A stretch of 64,000 nt of DNA, from the NCBI RefSeq assembly GCF_001647285.1, contig NZ_LRML01000002.1, positions 310,001-374,000 of the forward strand, in the 5' to 3' direction. The notes under the pieces are model-generated. The model saw nothing but the letters and a program-made list of their open reading frames with translations, was not told the DNA's origin and searched no databases. Shown here piece by piece: positions 396-62,316 of this stretch. The translations under genes were made by a program, and so were the position numbers. Positions within the stretch are counted from its first letter, which is position 1. Each line of letters opens with the position of its first letter. Origin of the DNA: Rufibacter roseus. Lineage in GTDB: Bacteria > Bacteroidota > Bacteroidia > Cytophagales > Hymenobacteraceae.

Positions 396-435
396 CTGTT
401 TTAGCCCTTTTTTTGCCAAAACAGCTCTAAAACAG
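396..435. repeat. 40-bp palindrome (Pal40), copy 1
   Basis: One copy of the window-wide palindrome whose consensus is CTGTTTTAGGCCTGTTTTTC plus its reverse complement. This copy has both outer arms (CTGTTTTAG / CTAAAACAG). Its right arm is also the left outer arm of the terminator that follows, so the two structures share bases. Confidence 0.75.
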
Positions 436-474
436 AAGAGGCAGCCAATTGGCTGCCTCTTCTGTTTTAGAGCT
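423..474. terminator. bidirectional terminator with 24-bp perfect arms
   Basis: Bases 423-446 and 451-474 are exact reverse complements around an AATT loop. The core stem is AAGAGGCAGCC/GGCTGCCTCTT; the outer part (AGCTCTAAAACAG) comes from the Pal40 arm. It lies between two genes that converge, the T9SS cargo gene and aconitase, so it can serve both. Confidence 0.85.
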
Positions 475-484
475 GAAATTCAGC

Positions 485-2761
485 TTATGCATTTTGCTGT
501 TGCAAACGAATCAAGTTAAGTGCAGATCCTGCTTTAAACCACTCAATCTGTCCTTGGTTATAGGTGTGGTTCGCTTCAAAGGTGTGGGTTGTACCATCTT
601 TGTGGGTAAGTTTCACCTGCAACGGAACACCAGGTGCGAAGCTGGTCAAACCGATCACATCTATCAAATCTGCTTCTTGTACCAGATCATAGTCTGCTTT
701 GTTGGCAAACGTAAGCGCCAGCATGCCTTGCTTTTTCAGGTTGGTTTCGTGAATACGGGCGAAAGATTTCACCAATACCACTTTCACCCCTAAATGACGA
801 GGCTCCATGGCCGCGTGCTCACGAGAAGATCCTTCTCCGTAGTTCTCATCACCGACAACTACGGTTCCGATTCCTGCAGCTTTATAAGTCCGGGCAACCT
901 GAGGAACCTCATCGTACCCTTCGCCTTGCATCAGGAAGTTCTTCACGCTGTTAGCTTCACCGTTAAATGCGTTGATGGCACCAATCAGCATGTTGTTGGA
1001 AATGTTATCTAAGTGACCACGGTATTTCAACCACGGACCGGCCATGGAAATATGGTCAGTAGTACACTTACCCTGTGCTTTGATCAACAGACGCAAACCA
1101 GTATAGTCTTGTCCGTTCCAAGGCTGGAATGGCTCTAACAACTGCAGACGGTCTGAAGTAGGGTCTACTACCACTTCCACTTTGCTGCTGTCTTCTGCTG
1201 GCGCAACATAACCGGCGTCTTCAGCGGCAAAACCTTTTTCTGGGTATTCAATACCGCGCGGCTCATCTAAACGAACAGCCTCACCGTTTTTGTTTATCAA
1301 CGTATCGGTTAACGGGTTAAACGTTAAGTCACCGGCAATGGCGAAGGCGGTCACTATCTCTGGAGAGGCCACAAACGCGTGGGTGTTAGGGTTACCGTCG
1401 TTCCGCTTGGCAAAGTTACGGTTGAACGAAGTGATGATGGAGTTTTTGCGTTTTGGGTCATCAGTATGACGTGCCCACTGGCCAATACAAGGTCCGCAGG
1501 CATTTGCCAGCACTACTCCACCAATCTCAGAGAATTTCTCCAAAATACCATCGCGTTCAGCAGTGTAACGCACTACTTCAGAACCTGGAGTAATAGTGTA
1601 TTCTGCCTTCACGGTGAGTCCTTTCTCTACCGCTTGCTGCGCCAGAGAGGCGGCACGGGTAAGGTCTTCATAGGAAGAGTTGGTGCAGGAACCGATCAAG
1701 CCTACTTCCAGCTCCTGTGGCCAGCCATGTTCACGAACGGCAGCGGCAAACTCAGAAATTGGCCAGGCAGCGTCTGGTGTAAACGGTCCGTTCACGTGCG
1801 GCTCCAAGGTGCTCAGGTCAATCTCGATCAATTGGTCATAGAAAGCGGCTGGGTCAGCATACACCTCATCATCGGCACGTAAGTGCTCGGCAACCTGGTC
1901 AGCTAGATCAGCAATTTCAGCACGCTCAGTGGCGTACAAATACTTGCTCATTTCTTGGTCATAGGCGAAAACAGAGGTAGTAGCCCCAATTTCAGCACCC
2001 ATGTTACAAATGGTGGCTTTACCAGTACAAGAGATAGTGTTAGCTCCTTCGCCGAAGTATTCAACAATGGCTCCGGTACCACCTTTCACGGTCAAAATAC
2101 CAGCCACTTTCAAGATTACGTCTTTGGGTGCTGTCCAACCACTCATTTTACCGGTCAGTTTCACGCCAATCACCTTAGGGAATTTCAGCTCCCAGGCCAT
2201 ACCGGCCATAACGTCCACGGCATCGGCACCGCCCACACCAATGGCGATCATACCAACTCCACCGGCGTTAGGCGTGTGAGAGTCGGTACCGATCATCATA
2301 CCACCCGGAAATGCATAATTCTCTTGCACCACGGTGTGAATGATACCAGCACCTGGCTTCCAGAACCCTATGCCGTATTTATTAGAAACAGAGGCCAGGA
2401 AATCATACACCTCTTTGTTTTCAGAATAAGCGTCGGCCAAATCTTGATCGGCACCCACACGGGCCTGAATTAAGTGGTCACAGTGTACGGAAGACGGAAC
2501 GGCTACTTTAGCTTTACCCGCCTGCATAAACTGCAACAAAGCCATTTGGGCGGTAGCATCTTGCATGGCTACGCGGTCTGGCGCGAAATCCACGTAAGAC
2601 TTACCACGCTCATAGGCCTCGGTTGCAGCACCGTTGTATAAGTGGGCGTATAGAATTTTCTCGGTTTGGGTTAAAGGTCGGCCTACTGCCTTACGTGCTG
2701 CGGCAATCCGGTCGCCCAGTTGCGCATACACTCCTTTGATCATGTCTACATCAAATGCCAT
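485..2761 (-). CDS. acn: aconitate hydratase
   Basis: Aconitase of 758 residues, interconverting citrate and isocitrate in the TCA cycle with a [4Fe-4S] cluster. Visible marks are [20 protein letters not shown] near residue 160, [10 protein letters not shown] (cluster Cys) near 358 and ACGPCIGQW (two more cluster Cys) near 422. The C-terminal swivel domain carries [15 protein letters not shown]. The length fits the mitochondrial-type/AcnA family used by Bacteroidota. It stands alone with its own promoter and a strong terminator; other TCA genes here are sdhCAB at 15.4-18.9 kb. Confidence 0.97.
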
Positions 2762-2805
2762 AGATCTGCTTAGTATTATTTAAGTTCAGTTGCTTACGTC
2801 GCGCA

Positions 2806-2837
2806 CAAATGTCGCAAACAGAACACTTTTACACAAA
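2806..2837 (-). promoter_or_regulatory. candidate aconitase promoter
   Basis: Read leftward, GACATTTG (2813-2806) is one base from the Bacteroidota -7 motif TAnnTTTG, and TTTG at 2837-2834 sits 24 bases upstream, a fitting -33 element. The leader to the aconitase ATG would be about 45 bases. Confidence 0.45.
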
Positions 2838-2905
2838 CTTTAAATTGTGACTCTTCTATATAAAGGTTTTCTGGTATTGGTAAAGCAAAATAAACGTCCT
2901 TGCCT

Positions 2906-4183: not shown

Positions 4184-4223
4184 GTGTTTTTGGCTTTGTT
4201 TTAAGAAAACAGCTAAAAAACAG
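4184..4223. repeat. Pal40 copy 2
   Basis: GTGTTTTTGGCTTTGTTTTA followed by AGAAAACAGCTAAAAAACAG. It lies between the convergent TlpA-like gene and the broken DinB-family gene, starting 21 bases after the TlpA stop. Confidence 0.65.
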
Positions 4224-8499: not shown

Positions 8500-8978
8500 A
8501 ACCACTTTTCTTGCTATTAGGCAGCAACCTGGGTGATAGAGAAGCCTATTTGCGCCAAGCAGAAATGCGTTTATCGGGTGTTTTCGGAAAAATAGCCCAA
8601 AAATCGAAGCTCTACGAAACGGCTGCCTGGGGTGTCACGGATCAACCTCCTTTTCTAAACCAAGTGCTGGCGTTTTCCACAAATATTCCTCCGCTGGAGG
8701 CATTGAAGCACACCCAGCAAATTGAGCTAGACCTGGGCCGTATCCGGAAAGAACGCTGGGGCGCCAGAGTGTTGGATATAGATTTGTTGTTCTACGGAGA
8801 TGAAACATTAATTCTGCCCGAGCTGATTCTCCCCCACCCTCAACTACACCTGCGTCGGTTCACGCTGATGCCTCTGGCTGAAATTGCGCCAGACTATGAG
8901 CACCCTGTGCTGCACAAAACGGTAGCAGAGCTGCTTCAAGATTGTCCGGATGAGCTGGAAGTGAAGGCTCTTAATTAA
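8496..8978 (+). CDS. folK: 6-hydroxymethyl-dihydropterin pyrophosphokinase
   Basis: HPPK, 160 residues, transferring pyrophosphate from ATP to hydroxymethyl-dihydropterin in folate synthesis. Diagnostic segments are LLGSNLGDRE at the start, KLYETAAWG, FLNQVL, RKERWGARVLDIDLLFYG (ATP/Mg site) and LPHPQLHLRRF. It overlaps the preceding hydrolase gene by four bases. A Pal40-like stretch falls inside it, but the residues there (GVFGKIAQKSKLYET) fit the family, so it may be chance. Confidence 0.96.
   Translation: MKPLFLLLGSNLGDREAYLRQAEMRLSGVFGKIAQKSKLYETAAWGVTDQPPFLNQVLAFSTNIPPLEALKHTQQIELDLGRIRKERWGARVLDIDLLFYGDETLILPELILPHPQLHLRRFTLMPLAEIAPDYEHPVLHKTVAELLQDCPDELEVKALN
8567..8606. repeat. possible Pal40 copy inside folK
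   Basis: GCGTTTATCGGGTGTTTTCG followed by GAAAAATAGCCCAAAAATCG keeps the Pal40 length and the right arm. The encoded residues match ordinary FolK sequence, so this may be a chance match rather than an insertion. Confidence 0.35.
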
Positions 8979-9382
8979 TTTGCTAATTTTTTAATGTGCT
9001 ATTACTTTGATTTTAGAAACGTATATGGCAGCAGAAGAATTGGTGGATTCTGTTTTAGGCTCCTTTTCAGAAAAGAAGGTCAAAAACAGCTTAACATGTT
9101 GAATTACTTATGCCTGTCTCTTTCCCCATGAGCGGAGCCTGCAAAAAAAGTAGCCAAAACTGAGAGTAGGAAACAGTGAACAGGAACAGGAACAGGGAAC
9201 AATGAGCAGTCGCCGTTGTTGGTGTTATCACCAACAACTAATATTGCTTTAGGACTATATTACCAGCAGGTGTAAACATCCCCCTCCCCCCTTCAAAGTG
9301 GGAATACAAAATAAACTGACTGTAAACTTTCTTACTGACCGAAGTTTATACTCCTCCGGAATCTAAATAGAAGTTTAGCTCA
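8979..9382. other. intergenic region with several short repeats
   Basis: Gap of 404 bases between convergent folK and the sugar dehydratase gene. It holds one Pal40, a half copy (AAAAAAAGTAGCCAAAACTG, near 9142-9161), a degenerate CAGGAACAGGAACAGG run (9181-9196), a 10-bp-arm hairpin GTTGTTGGTG-TTAT-CACCAACAAC (9215-9238) that could terminate either gene, and a C-rich stretch near 9280. No convincing open frame was seen. Confidence 0.7.
9050..9089. repeat. Pal40 copy 3
   Basis: CTGTTTTAGGCTCCTTTTCA followed by GAAAAGAAGGTCAAAAACAG; both outer arms are intact. It sits about 70 bases after the folK stop. Confidence 0.75.
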
Positions 9383-12207: not shown

Positions 12208-12247
12208 GTGTTTTGGGCCTTTTTTTATAAAAACAAGCCAAAAACAG
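12208..12247. repeat. Pal40 copy 4, in the fabD leader
   Basis: GTGTTTTGGGCCTTTTTTTA followed by TAAAAACAAGCCAAAAACAG. If the promoter at 12270-12277 is real, this palindrome is transcribed as a hairpin in the fabD 5' untranslated region. Confidence 0.75.
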
Positions 12248-18927: not shown

Positions 18928-18960
18928 AAAGCGAAGTCCTGCACAAGGGCTTCGCTTTTG
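18928..18960 (+). terminator. sdhCAB terminator
   Basis: AAGCGAAGTCC pairs with GGGCTTCGCTT (one G-T pair) and is followed by TTTTGTTTT, a typical intrinsic terminator. Its T-tract runs straight into the left arm of a Pal40 copy. Confidence 0.8.
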
Positions 18961-18997
18961 TTTTAGCCTTGCTTTTGGCAAAACAGGCCTAAAACAC
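18958..18997. repeat. Pal40 copy 5
   Basis: TTGTTTTAGCCTTGCTTTTG followed by GCAAAACAGGCCTAAAACAC. It directly abuts the sdh terminator. Confidence 0.75.
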
Positions 18998-19807: not shown

Positions 19808-19875
19808 TATAAAAAAAGTAGGCCTAAAACAGAGTTCTGTTTTAGGCCTACTTTTTAAAAACTACGCTAAAAACG
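19808..19875. repeat. two overlapping Pal40 units acting as a convergent terminator
   Basis: A right half-unit (AAAAAGTAGGCCTAAAACAG, ending 19834) faces a full unit (19837-19875, CTGTTTTAGGCCTACTTTTT and onward). Together they make a 20-bp perfect stem with a short loop, flanked by A- and T-runs on both sides. Position and shape suit a bidirectional terminator between the FMN reductase gene and ftsZ. Confidence 0.75.
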
Positions 19876-19876
19876 C

Positions 19877-23503: not shown

Positions 23504-24899
23504 GGGCTTTCTCCTCCAACAATTTTTTTATCTCCGGAACTAAAGTATCTATATCACCTGCGCCAACAGTGGCTAACACGCTAAAATCCAAATCTTTTCT
23601 TAACGCTTCTATTACCTCATCTTTCCGCAGAAGCTTCTTTTCTTTCACTTCCAAACGGTCAAAGATCAGCTCAGAGGTAACTCCTTCAATGGGCAGCTCT
23701 CTGGCTGGGTAAATATCTAGTAACCATACCTCGTCTGCCAGGTTCAGACTCTCAACAAACCCTTCTAAAAAATCCCTAGTTCGGGTAAACAAGTGGGGCT
23801 GAAACACAACCCTCAGCTTTTTATCTGGATACAATGCTCTGACAGATGTTAGAAAAGCTTCAATCTCTCGGGGGTGGTGAGCATAGTCATCTAAATATAC
23901 AGTTTTTTCTATATCCACCACCTTTTCGAACCGTCTTTTTACGCCCGTATATGCCGAAATACCTGATTTTATTTTCTCTACCGGCACATTCACCAATGAA
24001 ACCGCCTGTGCGGCTGCCAAAGCATTTTCAATGTTGTGGTAGCCGGGTATCTGCAAAGCTGTTTCCGGTAAGTCTAAGTTCCGGCCTTCGGCTGAAAATT
24101 TCATGCTTCCGTCGGCTATTTTTATGTCTTTTGCGTGAAGCTCCTCTTGCTCAAGACCATACCTAATTACCGTCACTGAAGGGTGGACAGCCTGAGCAAT
24201 ATTTGGGTCAGCGGTGTGGTTTAGAAGCAAGAAACCGTGTGGTTTAATCTGGCTCGCAAACTGCTGAAACGACTCTACCAGTGCCTCTTTCTGCCCATAA
24301 ATATCTAAATGATCAGGATCAGTGGAAGTGACCACGGCAATATCTGGGTGCAAGGTCAGAAAGGAGCGGTCGTACTCATCAGCCTCTACCACGCAAATAG
24401 CACGATCTTCTTCAGCATGAGGCAGTAGCAGGTTTGAACCAAGATCAGTGGAGATGCCGCCCAGAAACGCTGAGGTGGAAACTCTGGCATGGTGCAGCAA
24501 GTGCGCTACCATAGAGGAAGTGGTGGTTTTACCATGGGTACCAGCCACTGCAATCAAAAATTGGTCTGCCGTTAGCAAACCCAACACCTGTGAGCGCTTC
24601 AGAATAGTGTAATTTTCGCGCTCCAGATACTGTCTTTGGCTATGCGTTACCGGAATTGCAGGCGTTAAAACAACTAACGTTTCCGCCTTGTTTTTCAAAA
24701 AAGAGGCCGGAATCAGGTTTATGTCATCCACAAAATGAATGTCAGCGCCTTCTTCTTTCAATTTCAGGGTCAAGGGAGTGGGCGTACGGTCAAAACCGGC
24801 CACGGCAAAGCCCTTGGCCAGAAACCAACGTGCCAGGGCACTCATGCCTATGCCTCCAATTCCTAAGAAATAGATATTTTTAAACTGGTGCAGATTCAT
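23490..24899 (-). CDS. murC: UDP-N-acetylmuramate--L-alanine ligase
   Basis: First Mur ligase, 469 residues, adding L-Ala to UDP-MurNAc in the cytoplasm. FLGIGGIGMSALA is the nucleotide-sugar binding start, VAGTHGKTTTSSMVA the ATP loop near residue 118, VVEADEYDRSF the Mg/carbamyl region, and DDYAHHPREI the C-terminal domain motif. A Pal40-like stretch encodes residues of a surface loop near 62-74 (IPASFLKNKAET). Overlaps murG by four bases. Confidence 0.97.
   Translation of the reverse strand: MNLHQFKNIYFLGIGGIGMSALARWFLAKGFAVAGFDRTPTPLTLKLKEEGADIHFVDDINLIPASFLKNKAETLVVLTPAIPVTHSQRQYLERENYTILKRSQVLGLLTADQFLIAVAGTHGKTTTSSMVAHLLHHARVSTSAFLGGISTDLGSNLLLPHAEEDRAICVVEADEYDRSFLTLHPDIAVVTSTDPDHLDIYGQKEALVESFQQFASQIKPHGFLLLNHTADPNIAQAVHPSVTVIRYGLEQEELHAKDIKIADGSMKFSAEGRNLDLPETALQIPGYHNIENALAAAQAVSLVNVPVEKIKSGISAYTGVKRRFEKVVDIEKTVYLDDYAHHPREIEAFLTSVRALYPDKKLRVVFQPHLFTRTRDFLEGFVESLNLADEVWLLDIYPARELPIEGVTSELIFDRLEVKEKKLLRKDEVIEALRKDLDFSVLATVGAGDIDTLVPEIKKLLEEKAHVLE
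24677..24716. repeat. Pal40-like copy inside murC
   Basis: The right half AAAAAAGAGGCCGGAATCAG and the TTGTTTTTC centre match Pal40; the left outer arm is degraded. Read with murC it gives I-P-A-S-F-L-K-N-K-A-E-T, in the same frame as the copies in murD and comEC. Confidence 0.5.
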
Positions 24900-27164: not shown

Positions 27165-28507
27165 ACTCCGGTAGTATTTATAGCAGTCACGGCCTCAGCG
27201 AAAGCGCGGCCGCGGTGTTCATAATTCTTAAACAAATCGAAACTGGCGCAGGCCGGCGATAGTATCACCACATCTCCGGCCTCGGCAAAGCCTTTTGCCA
27301 ACCGAACCGCCTCGTTCACGTCTTGCGTTTCTTCTATTTTGGGGCAGATTTCAGAAAAAGAGGCCAAAATCTTACTGTTGTCTACACCCAAGCATACAAT
27401 TGCCTTTACCTTCTCTTGCACCAGTGGAAACAACGGAGAATAATCGTTGCCTTTGTCTTTGCCGCCTACCACCCAAACAATGGGTTGGTTGATGCCATCT
27501 AGCGCGTACCACACCGCCTCCACGTTGGTAGCTTTTGAGTCGTTGATAAACCGTATGCCATCTATTTCCCCCACCGGCTGTAGCCTATGCTCCGCGTTTT
27601 GAAAAGTGCCCAAGGCTTTTTCGATCTCAGTTGGCGCAATGCCAACCAATAAAGCCGCACCCACGGCCGCCATAGTATTGTATTGGTTATGCTGCCCAAT
27701 AAGCGGTGAAGCAGAAGTATCTATTTTAGCCCTGTTTTCAGGAAAAGAGGCCGAAATCAGACTTCCATTATAGTTAAGCGCCAAACCCTTACTCTCCTTC
27801 AGACCAAAGGGCAACTGCGTACCTGCAACCGAGTGTGCGGAACGGTATTTTTGAATCTCTGCATCATCCTGGTTGAAGAGGAAGTAATCTGCCGAAGTCA
27901 TGTTCTGCGCAATCCGGAATTTGGCCGCCGCATATTTGTCCATGCTGTACTGGTAGCGGTCTAAGTGATCTGGTGTGATGTTCAGCAGAATGGCTATGTG
28001 CGCCCTGAACTGGTACATGTTGTCCAGCTGAAAACTGCTCAGTTCCACCACATAGTAGTCATAGGCGTCTTCCAAAACTTTGGCCGCAAGGCTTTCGCCC
28101 ACGTTTCCGCCCAGAGCCACCTTTAAACCAGCACTTTTCAGGAGGTGGTAAGTCAGCAGTGTGGTGGTGGTTTTGCCGTTAGTTCCGGTTATGCAGATAA
28201 ACTTGCCTGAGGCATAGCGACCCGCAAACTCAATTTCTGAGATAACCGGTATGTTCCGCTCCAGTGCACCCTGAATAACCGGAACTGTGTCAGGAATCCC
28301 TGGACTCTTGATGATTTCATTGGCCTCGTATATCTGCTCCAATGAGTGCGTTCCTTCCTCAAAAGGAATTCCTGCGTCCGCTAACTGCATCCGGAATTTT
28401 TCAGCTATGACACCGAAATCAGATACAAACACGTCATAGCCCTTGGCCTGCGCCAACAAGGCTGCACCCACGCCGCTCTCCCCTGCTCCTAATATGGCTA
28501 ATTTCAT
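27161..28507 (-). CDS. murD: UDP-N-acetylmuramoylalanine--D-glutamate ligase
   Basis: Second Mur ligase, 448 residues, adding D-Glu. ILGAGESGVGAALLA opens domain 1, ITGTNGKTTTTLLTYHLL is the ATP loop near residue 108, LNITPDHLDRY the Mg site, and NDSKATNVEAVWYAL and LSPACASFDLF domain 3. Two Pal40-like stretches fall inside: one in the loop before LIGQHNQYN (SASFPENRAKID), one at SKILASFSEICPKIEE. The second matches ordinary MurD length, so only the first looks insertion-like. Confidence 0.97.
   Translation of the reverse strand: MKLAILGAGESGVGAALLAQAKGYDVFVSDFGVIAEKFRMQLADAGIPFEEGTHSLEQIYEANEIIKSPGIPDTVPVIQGALERNIPVISEIEFAGRYASGKFICITGTNGKTTTTLLTYHLLKSAGLKVALGGNVGESLAAKVLEDAYDYYVVELSSFQLDNMYQFRAHIAILLNITPDHLDRYQYSMDKYAAAKFRIAQNMTSADYFLFNQDDAEIQKYRSAHSVAGTQLPFGLKESKGLALNYNGSLISASFPENRAKIDTSASPLIGQHNQYNTMAAVGAALLVGIAPTEIEKALGTFQNAEHRLQPVGEIDGIRFINDSKATNVEAVWYALDGINQPIVWVVGGKDKGNDYSPLFPLVQEKVKAIVCLGVDNSKILASFSEICPKIEETQDVNEAVRLAKGFAEAGDVVILSPACASFDLFKNYEHRGRAFAEAVTAINTTGV
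27334..27373. repeat. possible Pal40 copy inside murD (3' part)
   Basis: The right half GAAAAAGAGGCCAAAATCTT is close to consensus; the left half is weaker. The encoded segment has normal MurD length and character, so chance or constraint is a real alternative. Confidence 0.4.
27721..27760. repeat. Pal40 copy inside murD (middle)
   Basis: CTATTTTAGCCCTGTTTTCA followed by GGAAAAGAGGCCGAAATCAG: both arms are recognisable. It encodes a loop just before the conserved GQHNxxN segment. Confidence 0.6.
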
Positions 28508-35528: not shown

Positions 35529-35583
35529 CTATCTACAACAGAGCCTGTGGAAGAGAAGTGGTGGAAAGTGGCGCGATTTTCCG

Positions 35584-38427: not shown

Positions 38428-38467
38428 ATAAAAATTGGCTTGATTTTGGTAAAACAGCCTGAAAACG
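38428..38467. repeat. Pal40 copy, left arm decayed
   Basis: The right half GTAAAACAGCCTGAAAACG and the TTGGCTTGATTTTG centre are recognisable. It directly abuts the 22-bp-arm inverted repeat. Confidence 0.55.
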
Positions 38468-38518
38468 AACTTTAGAAAAATTCACAACTCTTAACTTCAA
38501 ACTCTTAACTTTTAAAAA

Positions 38519-38894: not shown

Positions 38895-38929
38895 AGAAGA
38901 AGGCTGCCCCATCGGGGCAGCCTTCTTCT
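38895..38929 (+). terminator. terminator after the HMA gene
   Basis: AGAAGAAGGCTGCCCC and GGGGCAGCCTTCTTCT form a 16-bp perfect stem with a 3-base loop (ATC), followed by TTTT. It also faces the convergent crtW gene. Confidence 0.88.
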
Positions 38930-38965
38930 TTTGGCCTTTATTCTCTAAAAGTAGCCCCAAAACAG
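38926..38965. repeat. Pal40 copy fused to the HMA terminator
   Basis: TTCTTTTGGCCTTTATTCTC followed by TAAAAGTAGCCCCAAAACAG; its left arm overlaps the terminator's T-tract by four bases. It ends four bases before the crtW stop codon. Confidence 0.65.
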
Positions 38966-38968: not shown

Positions 38969-39673
38969 TTACCTCCCCTTCTCTAGCCGGTCTTTCTCCT
39001 GATAAAGTTTCCACCAAGGCAAATACGGCTTGTCGTGGTGCTCATAATGATACCCAAAAAAGTAGCAGCTTAGAAAAGCCCACAGGTGGTTACGGCCTTG
39101 GGTGCCGGATTTGTGCGGATTGTCTGGGGCATGCTCTCCGCGGTGCGGCAGGTACGTTCCGAAGTAGAACAGCTGAAACGTAGCCAATACGGCTGGCAGC
39201 ATCCAGAACAGAACAATGTTCTCAACCGGAAACCAAAGTTGCAGCAAATGAAAAGTGCCGGCCATGAGCAGAACCTGCACTACGGTTATGTATTGCCTGG
39301 CAAAGCTCAGAAACCAGAGAAAGAAGTTGCCGCCGTGGTAATCTGGATCTTGGTCAGTGGCTACGTGGCGGTGGTGCAAGTGGTGTTTTGGGTAAAGGCG
39401 GCCGTAGTAGTTGTAGGCAAATAAGCCAGCAGTAATAGTACCCACTACTGTATTCAGCTTTTTGTTTCCGGGGGCTACCACGCCGTGCATGGCGTCATGG
39501 GCGGTAATGAAAAGGCCGGTGTACAAGTGCGTCATCAAGAGCACCGCCAGATAAGTAAAGGGGGATGTAAAATCTATAGGCCAGTGCAGCAAAAACCAAA
39601 GGCAACCACTCCAAGCCAGCAAAATGACGAGGGCAATGATGATTCCGGCGTATTTTTGGAAAATCGGCTTCAA
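38969..39673 (-). CDS. crtW: beta-carotene ketolase
   Basis: Membrane di-iron oxygenase of the fatty-acid-desaturase/CrtW group, 234 residues, placing keto groups on the beta-ionone rings. Histidine boxes are TAHDAMHG, HHLHHRHV and FGYHYEHH; the CrtW-like spans FGTYLPHR and PWWKLYQEK support ketolase over desaturase. With CrtZ it would give astaxanthin-type xanthophylls. It is not in the crt operon but one gap away from it on the same strand. A degenerate Pal40-like sequence overlaps its first codons (39639-39678), too weak to list separately. Confidence 0.88.
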   Translation of the reverse strand: MKPIFQKYAGIIIALVILLAWSGCLWFLLHWPIDFTSPFTYLAVLLMTHLYTGLFITAHDAMHGVVAPGNKKLNTVVGTITAGLFAYNYYGRLYPKHHLHHRHVATDQDPDYHGGNFFLWFLSFARQYITVVQVLLMAGTFHLLQLWFPVENIVLFWMLPAVLATFQLFYFGTYLPHRGEHAPDNPHKSGTQGRNHLWAFLSCYFFGYHYEHHDKPYLPWWKLYQEKDRLEKGR

Positions 39674-39712
39674 AACAGGTTTTACTTATAACGTCTCAAT
39701 CTCTACACCTCT

Positions 39713-40104: not shown

Positions 40105-40144
40105 CTCATTTTCAGCCTACTTTTATTAAACTAGCCAAAAATAG
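40105..40144. repeat. Pal40 copy after ispH
   Basis: CTCATTTTCAGCCTACTTTT followed by ATTAAACTAGCCAAAAATAG. Moderately degenerate, 40 bases downstream of the ispH stop. Confidence 0.5.
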
Positions 40145-40184
40145 AAATTCCACATTTCTCCTATCATGTTACATGATACCAAAA

Positions 40185-43124: not shown

Positions 43125-44633
43125 TTAAACGGCTAACGTTTTTTCCTGCGGAGCGAATTCTTTCAGTACTTCCTGGGCCACCACCTGACCAGAAATAAGC
43201 GAAGGTGGGACTCCTGGGCCCGGCACAGTCAGCTGACCCGTGTAAAACAGGTTTTTTACTTTTTTACTTTTTAAGCTGGGCTTCAACACCGCCGTCTGCA
43301 GCAGGGTATTAGCCAACCCGTAGGCATTGCCCTTGAACGCGTGGTAATCTTTAATAAAGTCTTGGTGCGCGTACGTTCTCTTATAAATTACGTGCGGGCG
43401 TATTTGCTGCTTCGTCAACTTCTCTAGCCGCGCCATCACCAACTGGTAATAATGCTCTCTTATGGTTTCAGTGTCTTCTAAATCAGGGGCCACCGGAATA
43501 AGGACAAACAAGTTTTCTTTCCCTTCTGGGGCAACGCTTGGGTCAGTCATAGAGGGCACAGAAACATAGAACAGCGGCTTTTTCGGCCAGGCTGGATTGG
43601 TATATATCTCCTCAGCGTGCGGCCCGAAATCCTCGTCGAAAAAAAGATTATGGTGCTGCAGCCCGTGTAGTTTTTTATTTATACCCAGATAAAATATAAG
43701 CGACGATGGTGCCATCACGCGCTCGTTCCAGTATTTATCTGAATAACTACGGTAAGCAGGCGGCAACAGTTTGGTTTCCAGATGATGGTAGTCGGCTCCG
43801 CCAATGACCACATCAGTATCGTATGCCCCTTTGGAAGTAATAACTTTAGAGATGGAGCCACCGCTGAATTCAAGATTTCGCACCTCCTCCCCTAGTTTGA
43901 GAACGACCCCTTGCTCCTGTGCCAACTGCACCATGCCCTCCACTATTTTGTGCATGCCGCCCATTGGGTACCAGGTACCCAGAGCCATATCAGCATAGTT
44001 CATAAGGCTGTAAAGGGCAGGGGTATTTTCTGCCAGAGCCCCCAGAAACAGCACCGGAAACTCCATGAGCTGAATCAGTTTAGGGTGCTTGAAGAACTTT
44101 CGAACGTGCTTGTGCATACTCTGAAACACATCCAGCTTCAGCACGCCCACCAGTAGTTTAAGGTCAATGAATTCAGTGAGGGAGCGGCTGGGTTTATAAA
44201 CCAATTGGTTGATGCCTACCTCATATTTATAGGCAGCCTGCTTTAGAAACTCCCGCAGCTTTTGCCCTGAACCCGGCTCCAATGATTCAAACATCTCTTC
44301 CAAGTCTTTCATCTGAGCAGGCACTTCCATGATATCGCCTTCTCCAAAGAGCACCTGGTAAGAAGGGTCCAGCCGGACCAGCTCATAATAGTCAGAGACG
44401 TTTTTGCCGAATTTTTGGAAAAACAGCTCAAAAACGTCTGGCATCCAGTACCAGCTCGGTCCCATGTCAAAAGTAAATCCTTCGGCCTGAAAAACTCTGG
44501 CCCTGCCACCTGGCACTTCATTTTTCTCGAGACAAGTAACCGCATATCCAGCTTGGGCTAAACTAGCCGCCGCCGACAAACCCGCAAATCCCGCTCCTAT
44601 TACTATTACTTTCTTCTTGGGCGAATCTGACAT
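43125..44633 (-). CDS. crtI: phytoene desaturase
   Basis: FAD-dependent CrtI, 502 residues, making lycopene by desaturating phytoene. VIGAGFAGLSAAASLAQAG is the dinucleotide site, GPSWYWMPDVFE a CrtI hallmark, and FYTGQLTVPGPGVPPSLISG the C-terminal signature. First gene of the crt operon. A Pal40-like palindrome overlaps the conserved segment VFELFFQKFGKN; since these residues fit the family it is not an insertion. Confidence 0.96.
   Translation of the reverse strand: MSDSPKKKVIVIGAGFAGLSAAASLAQAGYAVTCLEKNEVPGGRARVFQAEGFTFDMGPSWYWMPDVFELFFQKFGKNVSDYYELVRLDPSYQVLFGEGDIMEVPAQMKDLEEMFESLEPGSGQKLREFLKQAAYKYEVGINQLVYKPSRSLTEFIDLKLLVGVLKLDVFQSMHKHVRKFFKHPKLIQLMEFPVLFLGALAENTPALYSLMNYADMALGTWYPMGGMHKIVEGMVQLAQEQGVVLKLGEEVRNLEFSGGSISKVITSKGAYDTDVVIGGADYHHLETKLLPPAYRSYSDKYWNERVMAPSSLIFYLGINKKLHGLQHHNLFFDEDFGPHAEEIYTNPAWPKKPLFYVSVPSMTDPSVAPEGKENLFVLIPVAPDLEDTETIREHYYQLVMARLEKLTKQQIRPHVIYKRTYAHQDFIKDYHAFKGNAYGLANTLLQTAVLKPSLKSKKVKNLFYTGQLTVPGPGVPPSLISGQVVAQEVLKEFAPQEKTLAV
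44398..44437. repeat. Pal40-like palindrome inside crtI
   Basis: ACGTTTTTGCCGAATTTTTG followed by GAAAAACAGCTCAAAAACGT; with one more pair the outer stem is AGACGTTTTTG/CAAAAACGTCT. It encodes residues conserved in CrtI, so codon choice or chance, not insertion, should explain it. Confidence 0.4.
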
Positions 44634-45830: not shown

Positions 45831-46724
45831 TTAAGCTGCCTGTTTCTCCTGCAGCCATATTTCTAAGTCTTCAATAGTTTTAATTAGCTTCACTTTTTCG
45901 GGCAGGGAAGTTTGGTTGTAATACTGCACCAAAGCTCCGCTGACCAGCACTTGGCGCACTGAAGCTTTTTCCACCAACTCTTCAATAAATTCAGAAACAG
46001 AAATTCTCGGGTTCACTGTGGTAAAAACTGAAAAGATGTAGTCTGGCTTAAATTGCTCAGTTGCTTTTAGTAAGTCCGGGAGCGGCAGGTGCTGACCTAA
46101 ATACAAGGTGGCATAACCAGCTGAACGTAACAAGTAATGGGCAAACAACAACGCCAGTTCATGTAATTCTCCTTCGGGCAGCGCTAGAATGACCTTAGGC
46201 GCATGCGGCACCTGCTGAATGGGAAGTCCGTCAATGGCCACCAGCATTTTCTGCCGTATCAACTGGCTCATGAAATGCTCGTGTGCGGGGGTAATGTTGG
46301 CAGTTTGCCATAGCAGGCCAATCTTGTGCAGAAAAGGGTACATTACCTGTCTCACGGAAGTAGAAAAGCCCAACTGTAAAATGGCTCGGTTCAGAATCCT
46401 CTCAAACAGCACCTCGTCCAATTCCACCATGGCCACAATCAGCTGATTGATGAAATGCTCCTGCCCTAACTCTGCATCTGTCAAGGTTAATACTTCTTTG
46501 GCAATTTGCTCAGGTGGCAGTTGGGCAATTTTAGAGATTTTATACCCCTCTTGGTACAGCAACGTTACGTTCAGCAGGTTCTTCAAATCTGCGTCATCGT
46601 AGTATCTGATGTTAGTGTCGGTTCGTTTTGGCTGCAGCAGCTGGTACCGCTGCTCCCAAATCCGGAGGGTGTGGGCTTTTATGCCCGAAAGATGTTCTAA
46701 CTCTTTGATAGAGTAATGCGCCAC
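45831..46724 (-). CDS. MerR-family regulator with B12-binding domain (CarH/LitR-like photoreceptor)
   Basis: Protein of 297 residues. Residues 1-70 are a MerR helix-turn-helix (IKAHTLRIWEQRYQLLQPKR). Residues ~85-170 are a cobalamin cap domain with W139 followed after nine residues by E149-H150, the Wx9EH motif of adenosylcobalamin photoreceptors. Residues ~175-295 are a B12-binding Rossmann domain with PEGELHELA, where H188 is in place to be the lower cobalt ligand; the usual following Gly is Ala. In the known family, dark-state tetramers repress carotenoid genes and light breaks them up. It is 26 bases after crtZ, which fits this role. Confidence 0.88.
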   Translation of the reverse strand: MAHYSIKELEHLSGIKAHTLRIWEQRYQLLQPKRTDTNIRYYDDADLKNLLNVTLLYQEGYKISKIAQLPPEQIAKEVLTLTDAELGQEHFINQLIVAMVELDEVLFERILNRAILQLGFSTSVRQVMYPFLHKIGLLWQTANITPAHEHFMSQLIRQKMLVAIDGLPIQQVPHAPKVILALPEGELHELALLFAHYLLRSAGYATLYLGQHLPLPDLLKATEQFKPDYIFSVFTTVNPRISVSEFIEELVEKASVRQVLVSGALVQYYNQTSLPEKVKLIKTIEDLEIWLQEKQAA

Positions 46725-47412: not shown

Positions 47413-47452
47413 CTATTTTTGACATGTTTTTCAGAAAGCAGCCCTAAAACAC
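47413..47452. repeat. Pal40 copy upstream of crtZ
   Basis: CTATTTTTGACATGTTTTTC followed by AGAAAGCAGCCCTAAAACAC; five bases after the GC-rich repeat. Confidence 0.65.
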
Positions 47453-48445: not shown

Positions 48446-50587
48446 TCACTTTAGTTTTAGTTTCCATGCTCCTTCCGTTTCCAGCTCATGTACCCTATAG
48501 CCAGCAGCACGAAGTTCTGCCGCCTTCTGTTGCGTGTATCTTCTGGAATTCGTTTGATCCAGTATGATAAGGTTTGTTTTAAATGTATTCTGCAGATGGG
48601 TTACCGGAGCCCACACATTATGCTGCAACACAAGTACCTCCACTTGAACGGGCACTTTTAGGTCTTTTGGAAGTTTTTCAAGCCACAGTATTCGCTTTTG
48701 GCGCCACACCAGAAGCTTGTTATTTGAAGGAAGTTCCTGATAGACTACTTGCTGTTTTAGGTCAGTTTTTAGGAAAATGGCCCCAAAACGAATTTCTTTT
48801 TCAACTCCTCTGGCCCACCAGTGCGGCTGCACAGTATAGACGAATTGTTGCGGCTGGGCGTAAAATGCTGAATCAGCTACCAAGAAAGCACTTCTTCCGT
48901 TTATGACACTGGCGGCACTACTTCCGTTTATGACACTGGCGGCACTACTTCGGCGAGAGCTGTAGATGACAAGTTCCTGATTCTGACGCTGACGCTTCGC
49001 CTCCGCTATTTCAGTACCTGATAGAAAAGCAACGCATAAAGCCATTATCCCCAACCACGAGAGGTGCTTTTGATAGATAAACAGAAATAGCGCACCAATG
49101 AGAAGGTACAGAACCAGCACCTGCCCTGGCGTTATCACAAATCCATCAAGCACCGCGTTAGGCCACTGCTCCACCACGCGAAGCCCTTCGTTCAGTAACC
49201 AGAGAATCCAGAACAGAGGCTTAACGGCAAGGGTAGCCAAGGCAGGCACCGGAGAAACCACCATAAACAGAATTCCAGCATACAGCGCAAAGGTGGCCAA
49301 CGGCACCGCAAACAGATTAGAAACACCAAAATAAACCGGAAACTGATGGAAGTAGTACAGGCTAAGCGGCGACGTAGCCAGCTGCGCCGCCACCGACAAG
49401 GTAAACAGTTGCCAGACATACCCCAGCCACCTGTTTTTGGGCTCCCATATCTTTGACAGTCTTGGTTGCAGGAGAACGATGCCTGCTACCGCCGCAAATG
49501 AAAGTTGAAAACCCACATCTAATAAAAGGTTTGGCTCATACAGCAACAACACAAAAGCTGCCACCGCCAAAGAATTCATCACAGAGGCTCTCCTGCTCAA
49601 AATAAAACCCATTTCAACAATGGTAAACATGGTCACAGAACGCAGCACTGATGGGGCCATACCCGTAAGGAAAGCATAAAACCACAGCACTGAAATTAGG
49701 AAAGCGCCAACTAAAAGCCTCCCTCCCCTGCGTTGCCTCAGTTGCCTGAATAGAAAAAGAAGCAAGGCGTAAAACGTACCCACATGCAAACCACTTACCG
49801 CTAGCACGTGCATGGTACCGGTTCGGGAATACGTATTTCGGAGCACCACATCTACATCATCTTTCACGCCTAACACCAACGCCCGTGCTATGGCCAACTC
49901 ACGTTTTTCAGGCAGGTACTGCCTGAATGCCTCTTCTAACTTCCTTCTCACTTTATAACTTAAAGCCCTGATAGAGGATGGCGGTTGCTGCCCCAGCAGC
50001 AGAAAGCGCTCAGGCGTTAAAAATTCTTGCCACTGAATATGTTTTCGTTGCAGAAACTGCCTATAGTTGAACTGGAAAGGATTATTGGGTGGCGGTGGCT
50101 CCTCTAAAGAACCATAAACCAGCAATTGTTCACCATAGCGCAGGGCATCGGCCTCGAAGGAACGAGGGAAAGAAAGCGCTACCTTACCGCTAGCTGCAGA
50201 CCATTTACCGGCAGAATCTCGCACGGCATAGAGTGCGCCTACTGTTGTCACCGAAGCGGGCTTCACAGAAACTCCTTCTACAAGAGTAACAGCGTAATTC
50301 ATGATTGCCCCCTGAGACACAGGTAGAGTTTTAGGGGTGTTTTTTAAAAAAGTAGCCCAAAACGATAGTGCTGTAATGGCAGCTAATGCAGTTACCCCTG
50401 CCCACCTCCGTCTGCGCCCCAAAGGTCGTTTCTTGACATACCAAAAGGTTACCAGAAACAATAGCACAAAAAAAGCGGCCACCTCTCCGGCCCAGGCGAA
50501 ATCACGACCTACTAAGTGAGCCAGAAGAATTCCACCTACAAAGCAAACCAACGGTCGCCACAGTCCGGTAACAGCGCGTTTAGGCAT
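48446..50587 (-). CDS. comEC: ComEC/Rec2-family DNA uptake channel
   Basis: Polytopic membrane protein, 713 residues. An N-terminal DUF4131-type part is followed by the Competence domain (MHVLAVSGLHVGTFYALLLF near residue 265, then LTGMAPSVLRSVTM). The C-terminal metallo-beta-lactamase domain seen in Firmicutes is absent, as in many Bacteroidota. The soluble tail holds an exact 9-residue tandem repeat (SSAASVING twice) and two Pal40 copies interrupt the gene in frame (FLKNTPKT early, FLKTDLKQ late). Role: passage of single-stranded DNA across the inner membrane in natural transformation. Confidence 0.92.
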   Translation of the reverse strand: MPKRAVTGLWRPLVCFVGGILLAHLVGRDFAWAGEVAAFFVLLFLVTFWYVKKRPLGRRRRWAGVTALAAITALSFWATFLKNTPKTLPVSQGAIMNYAVTLVEGVSVKPASVTTVGALYAVRDSAGKWSAASGKVALSFPRSFEADALRYGEQLLVYGSLEEPPPPNNPFQFNYRQFLQRKHIQWQEFLTPERFLLLGQQPPSSIRALSYKVRRKLEEAFRQYLPEKRELAIARALVLGVKDDVDVVLRNTYSRTGTMHVLAVSGLHVGTFYALLLFLFRQLRQRRGGRLLVGAFLISVLWFYAFLTGMAPSVLRSVTMFTIVEMGFILSRRASVMNSLAVAAFVLLLYEPNLLLDVGFQLSFAAVAGIVLLQPRLSKIWEPKNRWLGYVWQLFTLSVAAQLATSPLSLYYFHQFPVYFGVSNLFAVPLATFALYAGILFMVVSPVPALATLAVKPLFWILWLLNEGLRVVEQWPNAVLDGFVITPGQVLVLYLLIGALFLFIYQKHLSWLGIMALCVAFLSGTEIAEAKRQRQNQELVIYSSRRSSAASVINGSSAASVINGRSAFLVADSAFYAQPQQFVYTVQPHWWARGVEKEIRFGAIFLKTDLKQQVVYQELPSNNKLLVWRQKRILWLEKLPKDLKVPVQVEVLVLQHNVWAPVTHLQNTFKTNLIILDQTNSRRYTQQKAAELRAAGYRVHELETEGAWKLKLK
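48751..48790. repeat. Pal40 copy in the 3' part of comEC
   Basis: GCTGTTTTAGGTCAGTTTTT followed by AGGAAAATGGCCCCAAAACG. Read with comEC it gives R-F-G-A-I-F-L-K-T-D-L-K-Q, same frame as the murC copy. Confidence 0.65.
48894..48947. repeat. 27-bp perfect tandem duplication in comEC
   Basis: Two identical 27-base units beginning CTTCCGTTTATGACACTGGC run head to tail. They add nine residues in frame, so the protein is not broken. A fresh slippage product is likely, since the copies have not diverged. Confidence 0.9.
50326..50365. repeat. Pal40 copy in the 5' part of comEC
   Basis: GAGTTTTAGGGGTGTTTTTT followed by AAAAAAGTAGCCCAAAACGA. Encodes S-F-W-A-T-F-L-K-N-T-P-K-T between the first membrane helices and the periplasmic domain. 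Confidence 0.7.
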
Positions 50588-50759: not shown

Positions 50760-50799
50760 GCGTTTTGGGGCTGCTTTTTACAAAACAACTCCAAAACGC
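50760..50799. repeat. Pal40 copy between comEC and phoH
   Basis: GCGTTTTGGGGCTGCTTTTT followed by ACAAAACAACTCCAAAACGC; the outer stem AGCGTTTTGG/CCAAAACGCT is perfect. It lies 33 bases downstream of the phoH stop. Confidence 0.75.
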
Positions 50800-52761: not shown

Positions 52762-52984
52762 TTAAGAATTGAGAATTAGGAATTAAGAATGGGGGATCTA
52801 TTAATTTTTAATTTTCCGTCAGCACCACTTCCTCGTATGTTTTCGTCTGTTTTTCTAAAAGCAGACCGAAAACATACGAGGAAAGAAGAACAATAGGTGC
52901 CTGTTGAATGCCATAGCCATATGATCTTTCTCTTCTTTCCAAGATCAATTTTTAATTATTAATTCCTAATTCTTAATTAATTAC
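52760..52984. repeat. AT-rich inverted repeat holding a Pal40 in its middle
   Basis: GAATTAGGAATTAAG-type sequence at the left end (52760-52790) is mirrored by TTAATTCCTAATTCTTAATT at the right end (52956-52978). Between them lies a Pal40 copy with an extended stem, plus ~60 bases without features. Fills the whole gap between two rightward genes. Confidence 0.7.
52831..52881. repeat. Pal40 copy with extended 15-bp outer stem
   Basis: CCTCGTATGTTTTCG (52831-52845) and CGAAAACATACGAGG (52867-52881) are exact reverse complements. The central GTCTG/CAGAC and TTTTTCTAAAA keep the Pal40 layout. The arms are a variant of consensus with matching changes on both sides, i.e. compensatory. Confidence 0.8.
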
Positions 52985-52985
52985 A

Positions 52986-55898: not shown

Positions 55899-55938
55899 GC
55901 GTTTTGGACCTGTTTTCAGTAAAACGGGTCCAAAACAG
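55899..55938. repeat. Pal40 copy inside the czc operon
   Basis: GCGTTTTGGACCTGTTTTCA followed by GTAAAACGGGTCCAAAACAG; GTTTTGGACC/GGTCCAAAAC is a perfect inner stem. It stands between the adaptor and pump genes and so should be in the polycistronic mRNA. Confidence 0.78.
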
Positions 55939-59258: not shown

Positions 59259-59298
59259 CTGTTTTAAACCTATTTTTCGTAAAACAGGCTAAAAACAG
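59259..59298. repeat. Pal40 copy between czcA and the sensor kinase
   Basis: CTGTTTTAAACCTATTTTTC followed by GTAAAACAGGCTAAAAACAG; both outer arms intact. Confidence 0.75.
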
Positions 59299-60748: not shown

Positions 60749-61428
60749 GCGTTCTCCGGCTCCTTCAGCATATAGCCCATGCCCACCACTGTGTGCAGCA
60801 ACTTGGCAGAAAAATCTTTGTCAATTTTGTTACGGAGGTAATTCACGTAAACATCCACCACGTTAGAGCTTAAGTCGAAATTGAGGTCCCACACGTTTTC
60901 CAGCAAGTCTACCCGTGACAGAACTTTCCCCTGTTTCTTCAAGAAAAACTCTAGCAAAGCGAATTCTCGGGCCGTGAGGTTTATATCCTTGCCTGCCCTC
61001 TTCACCTCTTTGGTATCTAAGTTCATGCTCAAATCTCCGGCGCGCAGCATATTGCTGGCAGTAACCATGCCTGTGCGCCGTGATAGCGCCCGCACCCGAG
61101 CCAGTAGCTCTTTAAATTTGAAGGGTTTAGGCAGGTAATCATCTGCTCCGGCCTCTAAGCCATCTACAATGTCTTCGGTGGTGCCTAAGGCCGTCAGCAG
61201 TAAAATTGGCGTCCGTAGCTGTTCCTGACGTAACTGGCGGCAAAGGTCAAGACCGCTAAGATTTGGCAAAATGATATCCATGACAATGACAGAGTACTCA
61301 TTCTGTAAAGCTAGCCTCTTCCCCATGCTACCATCGTAAGCCACTTCTACTTCAAACGTCTGTTCCTGCAAGCCTCGCTTTATAAACGCTGCCACGTTGG
61401 GCTCATCTTCAATGACTAATACCTTCAT
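60745..61428 (-). CDS. OmpR/PhoB-family response regulator
   Basis: Regulator of 227 residues. Receiver domain with IEDEP, phospho-acceptor D51 in VIVMDIILPNLSG, and LPKPFKFKELLARV (conserved Lys). The C-terminal winged helix includes LTAREFALLEFFLKKQGKV and VDVYVNYLRNKID. It is the first gene of a two-gene unit with the kinase. The 11-bp direct repeats in front of czcC are good candidate targets. Confidence 0.95.
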   Translation of the reverse strand: MKVLVIEDEPNVAAFIKRGLQEQTFEVEVAYDGSMGKRLALQNEYSVIVMDIILPNLSGLDLCRQLRQEQLRTPILLLTALGTTEDIVDGLEAGADDYLPKPFKFKELLARVRALSRRTGMVTASNMLRAGDLSMNLDTKEVKRAGKDINLTAREFALLEFFLKKQGKVLSRVDLLENVWDLNFDLSSNVVDVYVNYLRNKIDKDFSAKLLHTVVGMGYMLKEPENA

Positions 61429-61735
61429 TCTTTTGGGCTAATAACACTACTCTTGTGAACATTTTCTTAGGGAAATATTCAAAGAGAAGAGATGTCTGTA
61501 AAACTAAAGAATTAGAAAGGATATGAAAAGTAGCTTTTCATAACAGAACCTGTTATAACATTACCCCTTTTGTTCATCAAGACACAAGGCACTAAACATA
61601 TAATTCTTCCCTTTGCCCATTAAACCATATCAGTAATAAGCTTCACTTAGAACAATTCATCAGGAAAGGAGTACTTTTACCAAGTCTATGGCACAAGCAT
61701 TGGCTATTTAAACCAATACCATCATTTTGGACACT
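61429..61735. other. divergent intergenic region with two adjoining palindromes
   Basis: 307 bases between the response regulator gene and hscB. It holds TATGAAAAG-TAG-CTTTTCATA (61522-61542), which overlaps ATAACAG-AAC-CTGTTAT (61540-61556). No exact TAnnTTTG was placed with confidence for either direction; TACTTTTA near 61672 is a near match for hscB. Confidence 0.55.
61522..61556. promoter_or_regulatory. tandem palindromes, candidate operator
   Basis: A 9-bp-arm and a 7-bp-arm palindrome, each with a 3-base centre, overlap by three bases. They lie ~100 bases upstream of the response regulator start. Lack of T-tract after the first argues against a terminator. Confidence 0.45.
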
Positions 61736-62275
61736 ATGAATTATTTTGAGTTTTATAACCTACCGGAAAGCTTTCTACCAGATGAGAAGGCTATTCAAAC
61801 CAAATACTACGCCCTCAGCCGTGAGTTCCACCCCGACTTTTACACCATGGAGCCGCCCGAGAAGCAGCAGGAAATTTTGGAGAAGTCAACGCTTAACACC
61901 AACGCCTACCGCACCCTTTCCAATTTTGACCGCCGCATGCAGTATATTCTGGAGCAGCACGGATTATTGGAGGAAGGTGGGCAAAACGACCTGCCCCAGG
62001 ATTTTCTGGCAGAGGTAATGGAGCTAAACGAGCAGCTGATGGAACTGGAGATGGATCCAGATTCAACCCAATTCAAGATTGTCTCTGACCAAACCGGCGA
62101 AATTGAGGGTTACCTGAAGGCGGAAATTTGGCCTGTACTGGAAAACTATGAAAACTTACCGCCTGAGGCTCAGGAAGAAGCCTTGAAACAGGTAAAAAAT
62201 TATTACCTAAAGCAGCGTTACCTCTTGCGTATTAAGGAATCATTAAATAAGTTTGCACCCTCTTCTGACGAATAA
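61736..62275 (+). CDS. hscB: Fe-S cluster assembly co-chaperone HscB
   Basis: J-type co-chaperone, 179 residues. The N-terminal J domain has YFEFYNLPESF and the HPD motif in REFHPDFY; the C-terminal three-helix part binds the scaffold IscU in known systems. The start is the ATG at 61736 rather than the TTG three codons earlier. No isc/suf or hscA gene is nearby in this window. Confidence 0.9.
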   Translation: MNYFEFYNLPESFLPDEKAIQTKYYALSREFHPDFYTMEPPEKQQEILEKSTLNTNAYRTLSNFDRRMQYILEQHGLLEEGGQNDLPQDFLAEVMELNEQLMELEMDPDSTQFKIVSDQTGEIEGYLKAEIWPVLENYENLPPEAQEEALKQVKNYYLKQRYLLRIKESLNKFAPSSDE

Positions 62276-62276
62276 A

Positions 62277-62316
62277 GCGTTTCTCGCCTAGTTTTTCAGA
62301 ATCTACCGAAAAGTAG
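62277..62316. repeat. Pal40 copy between hscB and tRNA-Leu, degenerate
   Basis: GCGTTTCTCGCCTAGTTTTT followed by CAGAATCTACCGAAAAGTAG. Layout and length fit but the right arm is decayed. It is the last copy before the accessory-looking segment. Confidence 0.45.

Follow-up and report, generated by a model that had tools for sequence, protein, structure and literature searches.

What are the palindromes that recur between the genes of a 64,000-nucleotide stretch of the Rufibacter roseus genome (the window), and what keeps them in place? A preliminary description had reported them as a dense family, here called Pal40. This family is real: all 17 intergenic coordinates listed earlier scored 19-50 bits, at most one base off. 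Pal40 is a mirror-symmetric DNA site of 40 letters that is abundant in Rufibacter. In each half, two T-tract boxes (YGTTTT-NRRSC-TGTTTT) are spaced by one helical turn; the halves join at a 4-bp dyad without conservation, and the core measures 36 bp. The copies had been called perfect-consensus palindromes, which was wrong, as none equals the consensus and the best agrees at 34 of 40 positions. Using a symmetric matrix (36 bits in the window genome, G000) and a threshold of at least 6 bits, we found 29 sites in the window, namely the 17 listed, nine strong unlisted copies and three weak ones (730, 15203 and 19793). When the window was resampled fifty times with a third-order Markov model, there were 0.8 matches of at least 6 bits per resampling, none of at least 20 bits and a top score of 16.3. 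The pattern GTTTTN7TTTTN4AAAAN7AAAAC, with up to three mismatches, had 24 window matches (two of them shifted duplicates) compared to 0.15 in shuffled sequence. In 464 kb of the window genome the matrix recovered 160 sites, versus 5 in resampled DNA, and a contiguous 400 kb held 131. This corresponds to about 1,700 copies per genome, close to the roughly 2000 per 5 Mb guessed before. Over the whole window genome the box pattern matched exactly 374 times and its reversed control not once. The preliminary description knew of no Bacteroidota family with this consensus, and our searches likewise turned up no account of Pal40.

Convergent gaps in the window hold copies at 396-435 (3' of the aconitase gene; 44.1 bits, 15 of 18 positions paired), 4184-4223 (42.9 bits), 9050-9089 (43.0 bits), 19837-19876 (39.9 bits), 38926-38965 (31.3 bits) and 59259-59298 (49.0 bits). 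Tandem gaps carry those at 12208-12247 (49.5 bits), 18958-18997 (42.9 bits), 38429-38468 (degenerate, 19.3 bits), 40106-40145 (23.1 bits), 47413-47452 (43.7 bits) and, within an RND efflux operon, 55899-55938 (44.7 bits). Further copies lie between murD and the next gene (28524-28563, 33.9 bits), in a divergent gap (35490-35529, 35.1 bits), 3' of phoH (50760-50799, 40.7 bits; likewise 3' of phoH in three of five named relatives), 3' of the SAM-hydroxide adenosyltransferase gene (52836-52875, 28.8 bits) and, as a degenerate copy, directly 3' of an hscB-like gene (62277-62316, 20.0 bits). One unlisted copy (39639-39678, 31.3 bits) sits near a desaturase gene start, where it overlaps the 5' end of the longest reading frame. 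Conservation at orthologous gaps, proposed earlier as a check, was evident: the gaps of the copies at 38429, 38926 and 39639 are occupied in all 16 species, the last by recognizably the same copy in 13. Of the 16 species, 15 have a site in the 19837 gap, with weak copies of 15.3 and 12.7 bits in G002 and G011; the 28524 gap is occupied in 12 and the divergent 35490 gap in only four.

Sites are densest between convergent genes (34 over 35 gaps), and the nearest stop codon is a median 30.5-53.5 bp away in five species. Both observations would suit hairpins in RNA by which transcripts are terminated or protected at gene 3' ends, as would a small excess of arm covariation in tandem and convergent gaps, where 101 of 513 copies have at least 16 of 18 pairs. 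We nevertheless regard hairpins as very unlikely. Divergent gaps also carry sites (15 over 35 gaps), and the T-run expected 3' of a terminator, in gene sense, is absent in G000, G008 and G004; G006 and G012 show T in weak excess, at 0.30-0.48 across the first seven positions. The earlier view that these are not standard terminators holds. Nor do Pal40 and ordinary terminators avoid each other in the window genome, in which a simple finder placed such terminators at 20 of 36 convergent 3' ends that have Pal40 and 4 of 10 that lack it, and at 9 of 64 tandem ends that have it and 7 of 72 that lack it (reverse-strand control, 32 of 182). Copies in coding sequence pair no better than chance (8.54 versus 8.88), yet several are conserved. 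The preliminary claim that pairing is kept thus applies in part, to the small excess in intergenic copies; it does not extend to coding copies, and the 17 listed copies range from 7 to 15 pairs of 18.

All but one of the nine strong unlisted copies were called within genes. One of these lies in a called coding sequence at 8567-8606 (33.9 bits). The copy at codon 68 of a MurC-type ligase gene (24677-24716, 33.6 bits) is found in 14 of the 15 species with the gene, with a synonymous identity of 0.79 versus 0.47 in the rest of the gene. The two copies in murD lie at codon 385 (27334-27373, 32.7 bits; 14/15 species; 0.75 versus 0.51) and codon 256 (27721-27760, 42.1 bits; 15/15; 0.84 versus 0.51, with an amino acid identity of just 0.49). 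The copy at codon 67 of murE (31088-31127, 34.9 bits; 0.85 versus 0.51) is present in 16/16 species, and that at codon 72 of a phytoene-desaturase-like gene (44398-44437, 36.4 bits; 0.77 versus 0.45) in 14/16, mostly in weaker form (16-27 bits). In comEC one copy lies near the 3' end (48752-48791, 42.8 bits), at the same place in all six named or own Rufibacter genes, and another at nucleotide 222 (50326-50365, 35.2 bits), in the same codons of all six genes including our own and absent from five aligned outgroup genes. Five coding locations are thus occupied in 14-16 of 15-16 species; 14 of 31 coding locations are found in a single species only. For the five coding sites that were selected on the window genome alone, by a score of at least 20 bits, synonymous identity exceeded that of the rest of the gene by a mean of 0.31, compared to 0.007 (sd 0.129) at 1,000 decoys. 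Such long, information-rich sites at fixed in-gene addresses under DNA-level selection are unusual in bacteria.

The same addresses speak against a mobile repeat of REP/MITE type that a RAYT or another transposase would spread, one of the readings proposed in the preliminary description, and we give it almost no credence. Compared to five outgroup genes, the length around the two comEC sites changes by -9 and by +18 nt at most, rather than by +40, so that the conserved codons arose without a 40-bp insertion, and orthologous positions are filled in nearly all species. Like the REPs of the GTAG and CGTC families described with RAYTs, Pal40 is a short, abundant and mostly intergenic palindrome, but none of 48 matrix columns contains a GTAG or CGTC end tag. 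CGTC REPs without a dedicated transposase have been reported in Bacteroidetes (PMC3733652). Y1 transposase matches occur in 15 of 16 Rufibacter genomes, yet G007, with 256 exact sites, has no such match. The suggested search for a RAYT with matching ends gave a divided answer: four RAYT-type loci hold other inverted repeats, whereas Pal40 is about twofold denser in six own Y1 loci (14 in 19.3 kb; 725 versus 336 per Mb; Poisson P 0.007). A site on at least one side is no more frequent for Y1 genes (5/6) than for size-matched genes (39/49); sites on both sides were seen for 3/6 and 8/49, respectively (P 0.06). Of the earlier interpretation, the abundant family and its distinction from standard terminators stand, and the mobile repeat is not supported.

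Pal40 is confined to one genus. The box pattern is present in 16 of 16 Rufibacter genomes examined (10-820 exact copies each) and in three of 188 other family genomes, with one copy each; a syntenic 40 kb holds 14-46 sites in every species. A phage-like contig carries Pal40 sites as well. Some dialects are common to sister species and some mark one species. In G012 a different inner box has 471 exact copies, compared to 0-2 in other species, and this dialect also appears at some orthologous coding sites, such as the MurC-type site; at murE codon 67 it is present in part only. Conservation at orthologous codons, synonymous constraint and the G012 dialect together imply that duplex DNA is read in trans by a factor that co-evolves with the sites. 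Sixteen species with many common addresses and differing dialects constitute a natural experiment in which a DNA-binding specificity and well over 1,000 sites change together.

A reader of this kind could also belong to a DNA-uptake system. Here DNA with Pal40 would be favored in uptake or transfer and then recombined, and molecular drive would build up sites by point mutation wherever they are tolerated and keep them in line with the dialect of a receptor. We consider this unlikely, though it accounts for several features. Pal40 shows the over-representation and lineage dialects of a DNA uptake sequence. Its information content, which varies among species from about 19 to 52 bits, is in excess of need, and its density is 345-786 sites per Mb in five species. 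Very many copies in and outside genes, and dialects even at orthologous sites, resemble the DUS of Neisseriaceae as described (PMC3630211), and the copies on the phage-like contig parallel the accumulation of USS of Pasteurellaceae in prophages (PMC6776037). One species is reported to have DUS arranged as pairs with dyad symmetry (PMC3630211). On the contrary, Pal40 is a 36-40 bp dyad and mainly intergenic, with an in-gene share of 0-27% in five species compared to the 65% and 35% given for H. influenzae and N. gonorrhoeae (PMC1939737). A search covering the pilus-type route found no T2SS/type IV pilus ATPase (PF00437) above the cut-off in any of the 16 Rufibacter genomes. The uptake signals known to us are short and none is palindromic, unlike Pal40, and we know of no report of competence in Rufibacter. 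Nucleoid-protein sites and uptake or segregation signals, the other part of the earlier proposal, fared better than mobile repeats, except that a segregation signal is disfavored by the flat density along the single-contig genome G006, where 20 kb held 7-11 sites at each of 14 points.

The DNA of Pal40 is predicted to be curved by about 60 degrees, the modelled mean bend being 53.5-66.6 degrees versus 19.2-21.9 in shuffled sites (six species). AT content is modulated in phase beyond the core, near a 10-bp period and most strongly 24-46 bp from the dyad; this was significant in three of five species and neither in G000 and G012 nor at coding sites. Strong sites of a type IIA topoisomerase (gyrase or topoisomerase IV) would lie where transcription piles up supercoils, which the peak density of Pal40 between convergent genes would suit, and would have phased AT/GC in their flanks to about 65 bp. 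The E. coli gyrase motif is reported to have a symmetric 36-bp center with a 4-bp stagger and periodic flanks (PMC6379681), and the symmetric bent core of Pal40 with its unconserved 4-bp middle is similar. We still judge topoisomerase sites to be rather improbable. The gyrase motif is degenerate and spans 130 bp, while Pal40 is sharp and limited to the genus. The AT peaks of the flanks, at 21-22 and 30 bp, do not continue the phase of the core T-tracts and die away past about 60 bp. All 29 genomes searched have two GyrA/ParC-type matches with no genus-specific extra one, and Rufibacter GyrA looks ordinary (N-domain identity 84-86% to two sister genera).

On balance, we think it just probable that Pal40 sites are bent symmetric sites of a genus-specific chromosome-architecture factor. 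Such a putative factor would read the duplex symmetrically, most simply as a dimer, and most likely bend or wrap it and thereby organize the chromosome. Sites are tolerated chiefly in gaps, most densely between convergent genes, and some lie inside genes. Several observations count against this architectural reading. To our knowledge, nucleoid-protein sites hold far less information, and the 20.9-51.7 bits of Pal40 exceed the information required to specify so many sites by a factor of about two to four and a half. Packaging would favor even spacing: within 20-kb stretches spacing was even in G000, G006 and G004 and not in G012 and G008, and evenness in the window genome was not significant over the contiguous 400 kb (P 0.17). 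Arm covariation in intergenic copies exceeds what dimer binding alone would require. Correlations of 0.20-0.23 between the two boxes of one half, against 0.06 between the outer boxes of opposite halves, fit the proposed reading, but the halves are not clearly separate units: an outer box correlates at 0.12-0.17 with the opposite inner box, and this pair is the most enriched (GTTTT-N15-AAAAC, 115 versus 85 for the outer pair). Profile searches turned up no candidate for the factor: neither HU (PF00216; one or two matches per genome inside and outside Rufibacter) nor ParB (PF02195) was genus-specific. A parS/Noc site was set aside because each of the 16 Rufibacter genomes has one ParB_N match and no additional ParB/Noc paralogue.

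More tentatively, and with some doubt, Pal40 might be a chromosome-marking code of the genus's own, in which more than 1,000 long bent symmetric sites arose by point mutation in the common ancestor, kept fixed addresses even where they shaped protein sequence and were rewritten genome-wide when the specificity of the reader changed. If true, this would add to bacterial chromosome organization a layer resembling nucleosome positioning, with a dedicated protein of its own. Rufibacter also lends itself to studying the selection behind architectural or transfer signals that span a genome. HIP1 of cyanobacteria is likewise an abundant lineage palindrome that also occurs in genes; it measures 8 bp and is without phased T-tracts, whereas Pal40 carries them in both halves.

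The Pal40 family was first recognized in the preliminary description, and a symmetric matrix assigns 19-50 bits to each of the 17 copies listed there, confirming that the family is present. The window (64 kb, 46.6% G+C) was resampled 50 times with a Markov model, and no hit of at least 20 bits was obtained. A scan of 464 kb of the same genome, comprising the window and 400 contiguous kb from another contig, recovered 160 sites with a matrix of 36 bits total information, compared to 5 in resampled DNA. Above 12 bits these numbers were 148 of the 160 and one, respectively. The density of 345 sites per Mb corresponds to about 1,700 sites in the 5.12 Mb genome. The exact pattern GTTTTN7TTTTN4AAAAN7AAAAC matched 374 times across the whole genome, while the reversed control did not match at all (0).

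Each half of the site reads YGTTTT-NRRSC-TGTTTT, with a box spacing of 11 bp and four unconserved bases at the dyad. Box quality correlated within halves (0.20-0.23), less between outer and inner boxes of opposite halves (0.12-0.17) and least between the two outer boxes (0.06). Given these values, the subdivision of the site into two halves is no more than a suggestion. With a dinucleotide wedge model, mean bends came to 53.5-66.6 degrees in six species, compared to 19.2-21.9 degrees in shuffled sites. In three of five species, flanking AT content was modulated in phase with the dyad, most strongly at a distance of 24-46 bp; this figure comes from species sets analyzed apart, the initial periodicity result having pooled orthologous sites. 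Phased modulation outside the core was not significant in the window genome or in G012, another species of the 16-member Rufibacter set.

The box pattern was found in all 16 Rufibacter genomes, with 10-820 exact copies. A low exact count does not mean absence, since species-adapted matrices detected 14-46 sites per species in the syntenic 40 kb of all 16 species. Six species carry sharp sites of 30-49 bits, reaching 52 bits in G012. Weaker (19-26 bits) and mostly more numerous sites occur in nine species, which make up a single clade when the tree is midpoint-rooted; G001 (25 bits) groups in the tree with the sharp-site species. Among 188 family members outside the genus, three genomes had a single match to the pattern, and a control match occurred in one. 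For PhoH, the closest named relatives are five Rufibacter species (91-93% identity), followed by Pontibacter (at most 82%), the window's own record possibly being excluded. No palindrome judged of the same strength was found in Pontibacter, Hymenobacter, Adhaeribacter, Spirosoma and Dyadobacter loci, where the scan covered one orthologous region per locus. Hymenobacter loci showed enrichments up to z 22, which probably reflect shared genes, the loci being one orthologous region each. When one 181-base gap was searched against plasmids, 16 short, weak matches were obtained, none covering more than 80% of the query. Searches of open-licence PubMed Central papers showed no description of the motif.

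Several coding sites are held at orthologous codons. In the syntenic 40 kb, occupancy was 16/16 species in murE, 15/15 and 14/15 in murD, 14/15 in the MurC-type ligase gene and 14/16 in the phytoene-desaturase-like gene; 14 of 31 coding locations were confined to a single species. Three gaps contained Pal40 in 16/16 species, a gap being scored as occupied regardless of which copy fills it and some calls being weak (e.g., G002 and G011 in gap r01-r02). The comEC site falls on identical codons in each of the six Rufibacter genes examined, and the local length difference to five outgroup genes was -9 and at most +18 nt, not +40. Five coding sites, chosen from the window genome alone (at least 20 bits, at least ten orthologues), had a synonymous identity to relatives of 0.75-0.85 compared to 0.45-0.51 in the remaining gene. 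The mean excess of 0.31 was not reached in any of 20,000 resamplings; for 1,000 decoy sites from 200 column-permuted matrices the mean excess was 0.007 (sd 0.129). At murD codon 256 amino-acid identity was only 0.49 compared to 0.83 elsewhere, and hence the DNA is held there and not the protein. A further coding location, r09 (codon 323), is occupied in 12/16 species and lacking in the window genome; it lies outside the five-site test set and has a low synonymous identity against the window genome (50/190). Judged from these sequence comparisons, several coding Pal40 sites are selected as DNA.

Species also differ in their box sequence. In G012 the inner box reads CTCATTT instead of CTGTTTT, with 471 exact copies compared to 0-2 in the 15 others, and G005 and the sister species G007 and G013 have variants of their own. 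At orthologous coding sites the G012 dialect is complete in the MurC-type ligase gene, present in a single half of the site at murD codon 385 and only partial at murE codon 67. The first matrix detected no G012 coding sites in 140 kb; a shrunken matrix detected seven in the syntenic 40 kb. A trans-acting specificity is the simplest explanation for such in-place rewriting.

A mobile repeat of the REP/MITE kind was disfavored after testing. Y1 transposase counts did not track Pal40 counts across genomes, and the RAYT-type loci searched contained inverted repeats other than Pal40. Among the six Y1 loci of the window genome (L105-L110), those of L105, L107 and L108 have long inverted repeats, of kinds unrelated to one another, on both sides of the gene, and that of L106 has some on one side. 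Unexpectedly, Pal40 density around these six genes is about twice the background. One 39-kb phage-like contig (IMGVR_UViG_2839759663_000002) has one exact and three one-mismatch matches, so mobile DNA carries sites too. It was the sole hit when a collection of viral sequences was searched with a stricter pattern.

Hairpin formation was addressed by arm pairing, excluding species groups with fewer than five sites. Out of 18 pairs, tandem copies form 12.06 compared to 11.35 expected from column composition (n=361), convergent copies 12.26 compared to 11.78 (n=125), divergent copies 11.33 compared to 11.09 (n=58) and coding copies 8.54 compared to 8.88 (n=214). Gap copies thus covary modestly more than expected, and coding copies do not. 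This excess may stem from repair by template switching or from a secondary function in RNA. We read Pal40 as not primarily a hairpin. An ordinary terminator was likewise disfavored after testing. At L106:2694-2739, a classical terminator-like hairpin has a T-run that overlaps a Pal40 site in its left arm. Rfam at gathering thresholds matched one tRNA and nothing else in the whole window, disfavoring a known RNA family. The tRNA gene lies at 62322-62405, six bases beyond the last Pal40 site.

Placement was counted for 150 sites of at least 10 bits in the 464 kb, with genes called by a simple in-house caller that missed murE in the window. Convergent gaps held 34 sites over 35 gaps, tandem gaps 83 over 201 and divergent gaps 15 over 35; 15 sites lay inside genes and three at edges. 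In tandem gaps of at least 120 bp, sites occupy the upstream portion (median relative position 0.26, n=83). The single-contig G006 genome has a flat density of 7-11 sites per 20 kb at 14 points. Spacing appeared even within 20-kb stretches of the window genome, which was not upheld across contiguous 400 kb.

A chromosome-architecture protein is the putative reader that best fits symmetry, bend and placement, and we rank it first. A genus-specific HU and a ParB/Noc paralogue are disfavored as readers, as neither HU nor ParB has a genus-specific extra copy. Ranked second, an uptake-like drive would fit the excess information and the dialects; a pilus-type ATPase above the cut-off was not found in the 16 Rufibacter genomes. 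Third, sites for a type IIA topoisomerase would fit the dyad and the flanks, and an extra such enzyme is disfavored because its subunits have no genus-specific extra copy. The acidic GyrA C-terminal tail is longer in four species (G003, G004, G008 and G014; loci L231 and L238-L240) than in seven other Rufibacter GyrA proteins that were compared, and these four species are part of the weak-site clade. Separately, a MerR/B12-binding regulator at 45831-46724 of the window adjoins carotenoid genes, and its composition is that of a light-sensing repressor of the CarH type.
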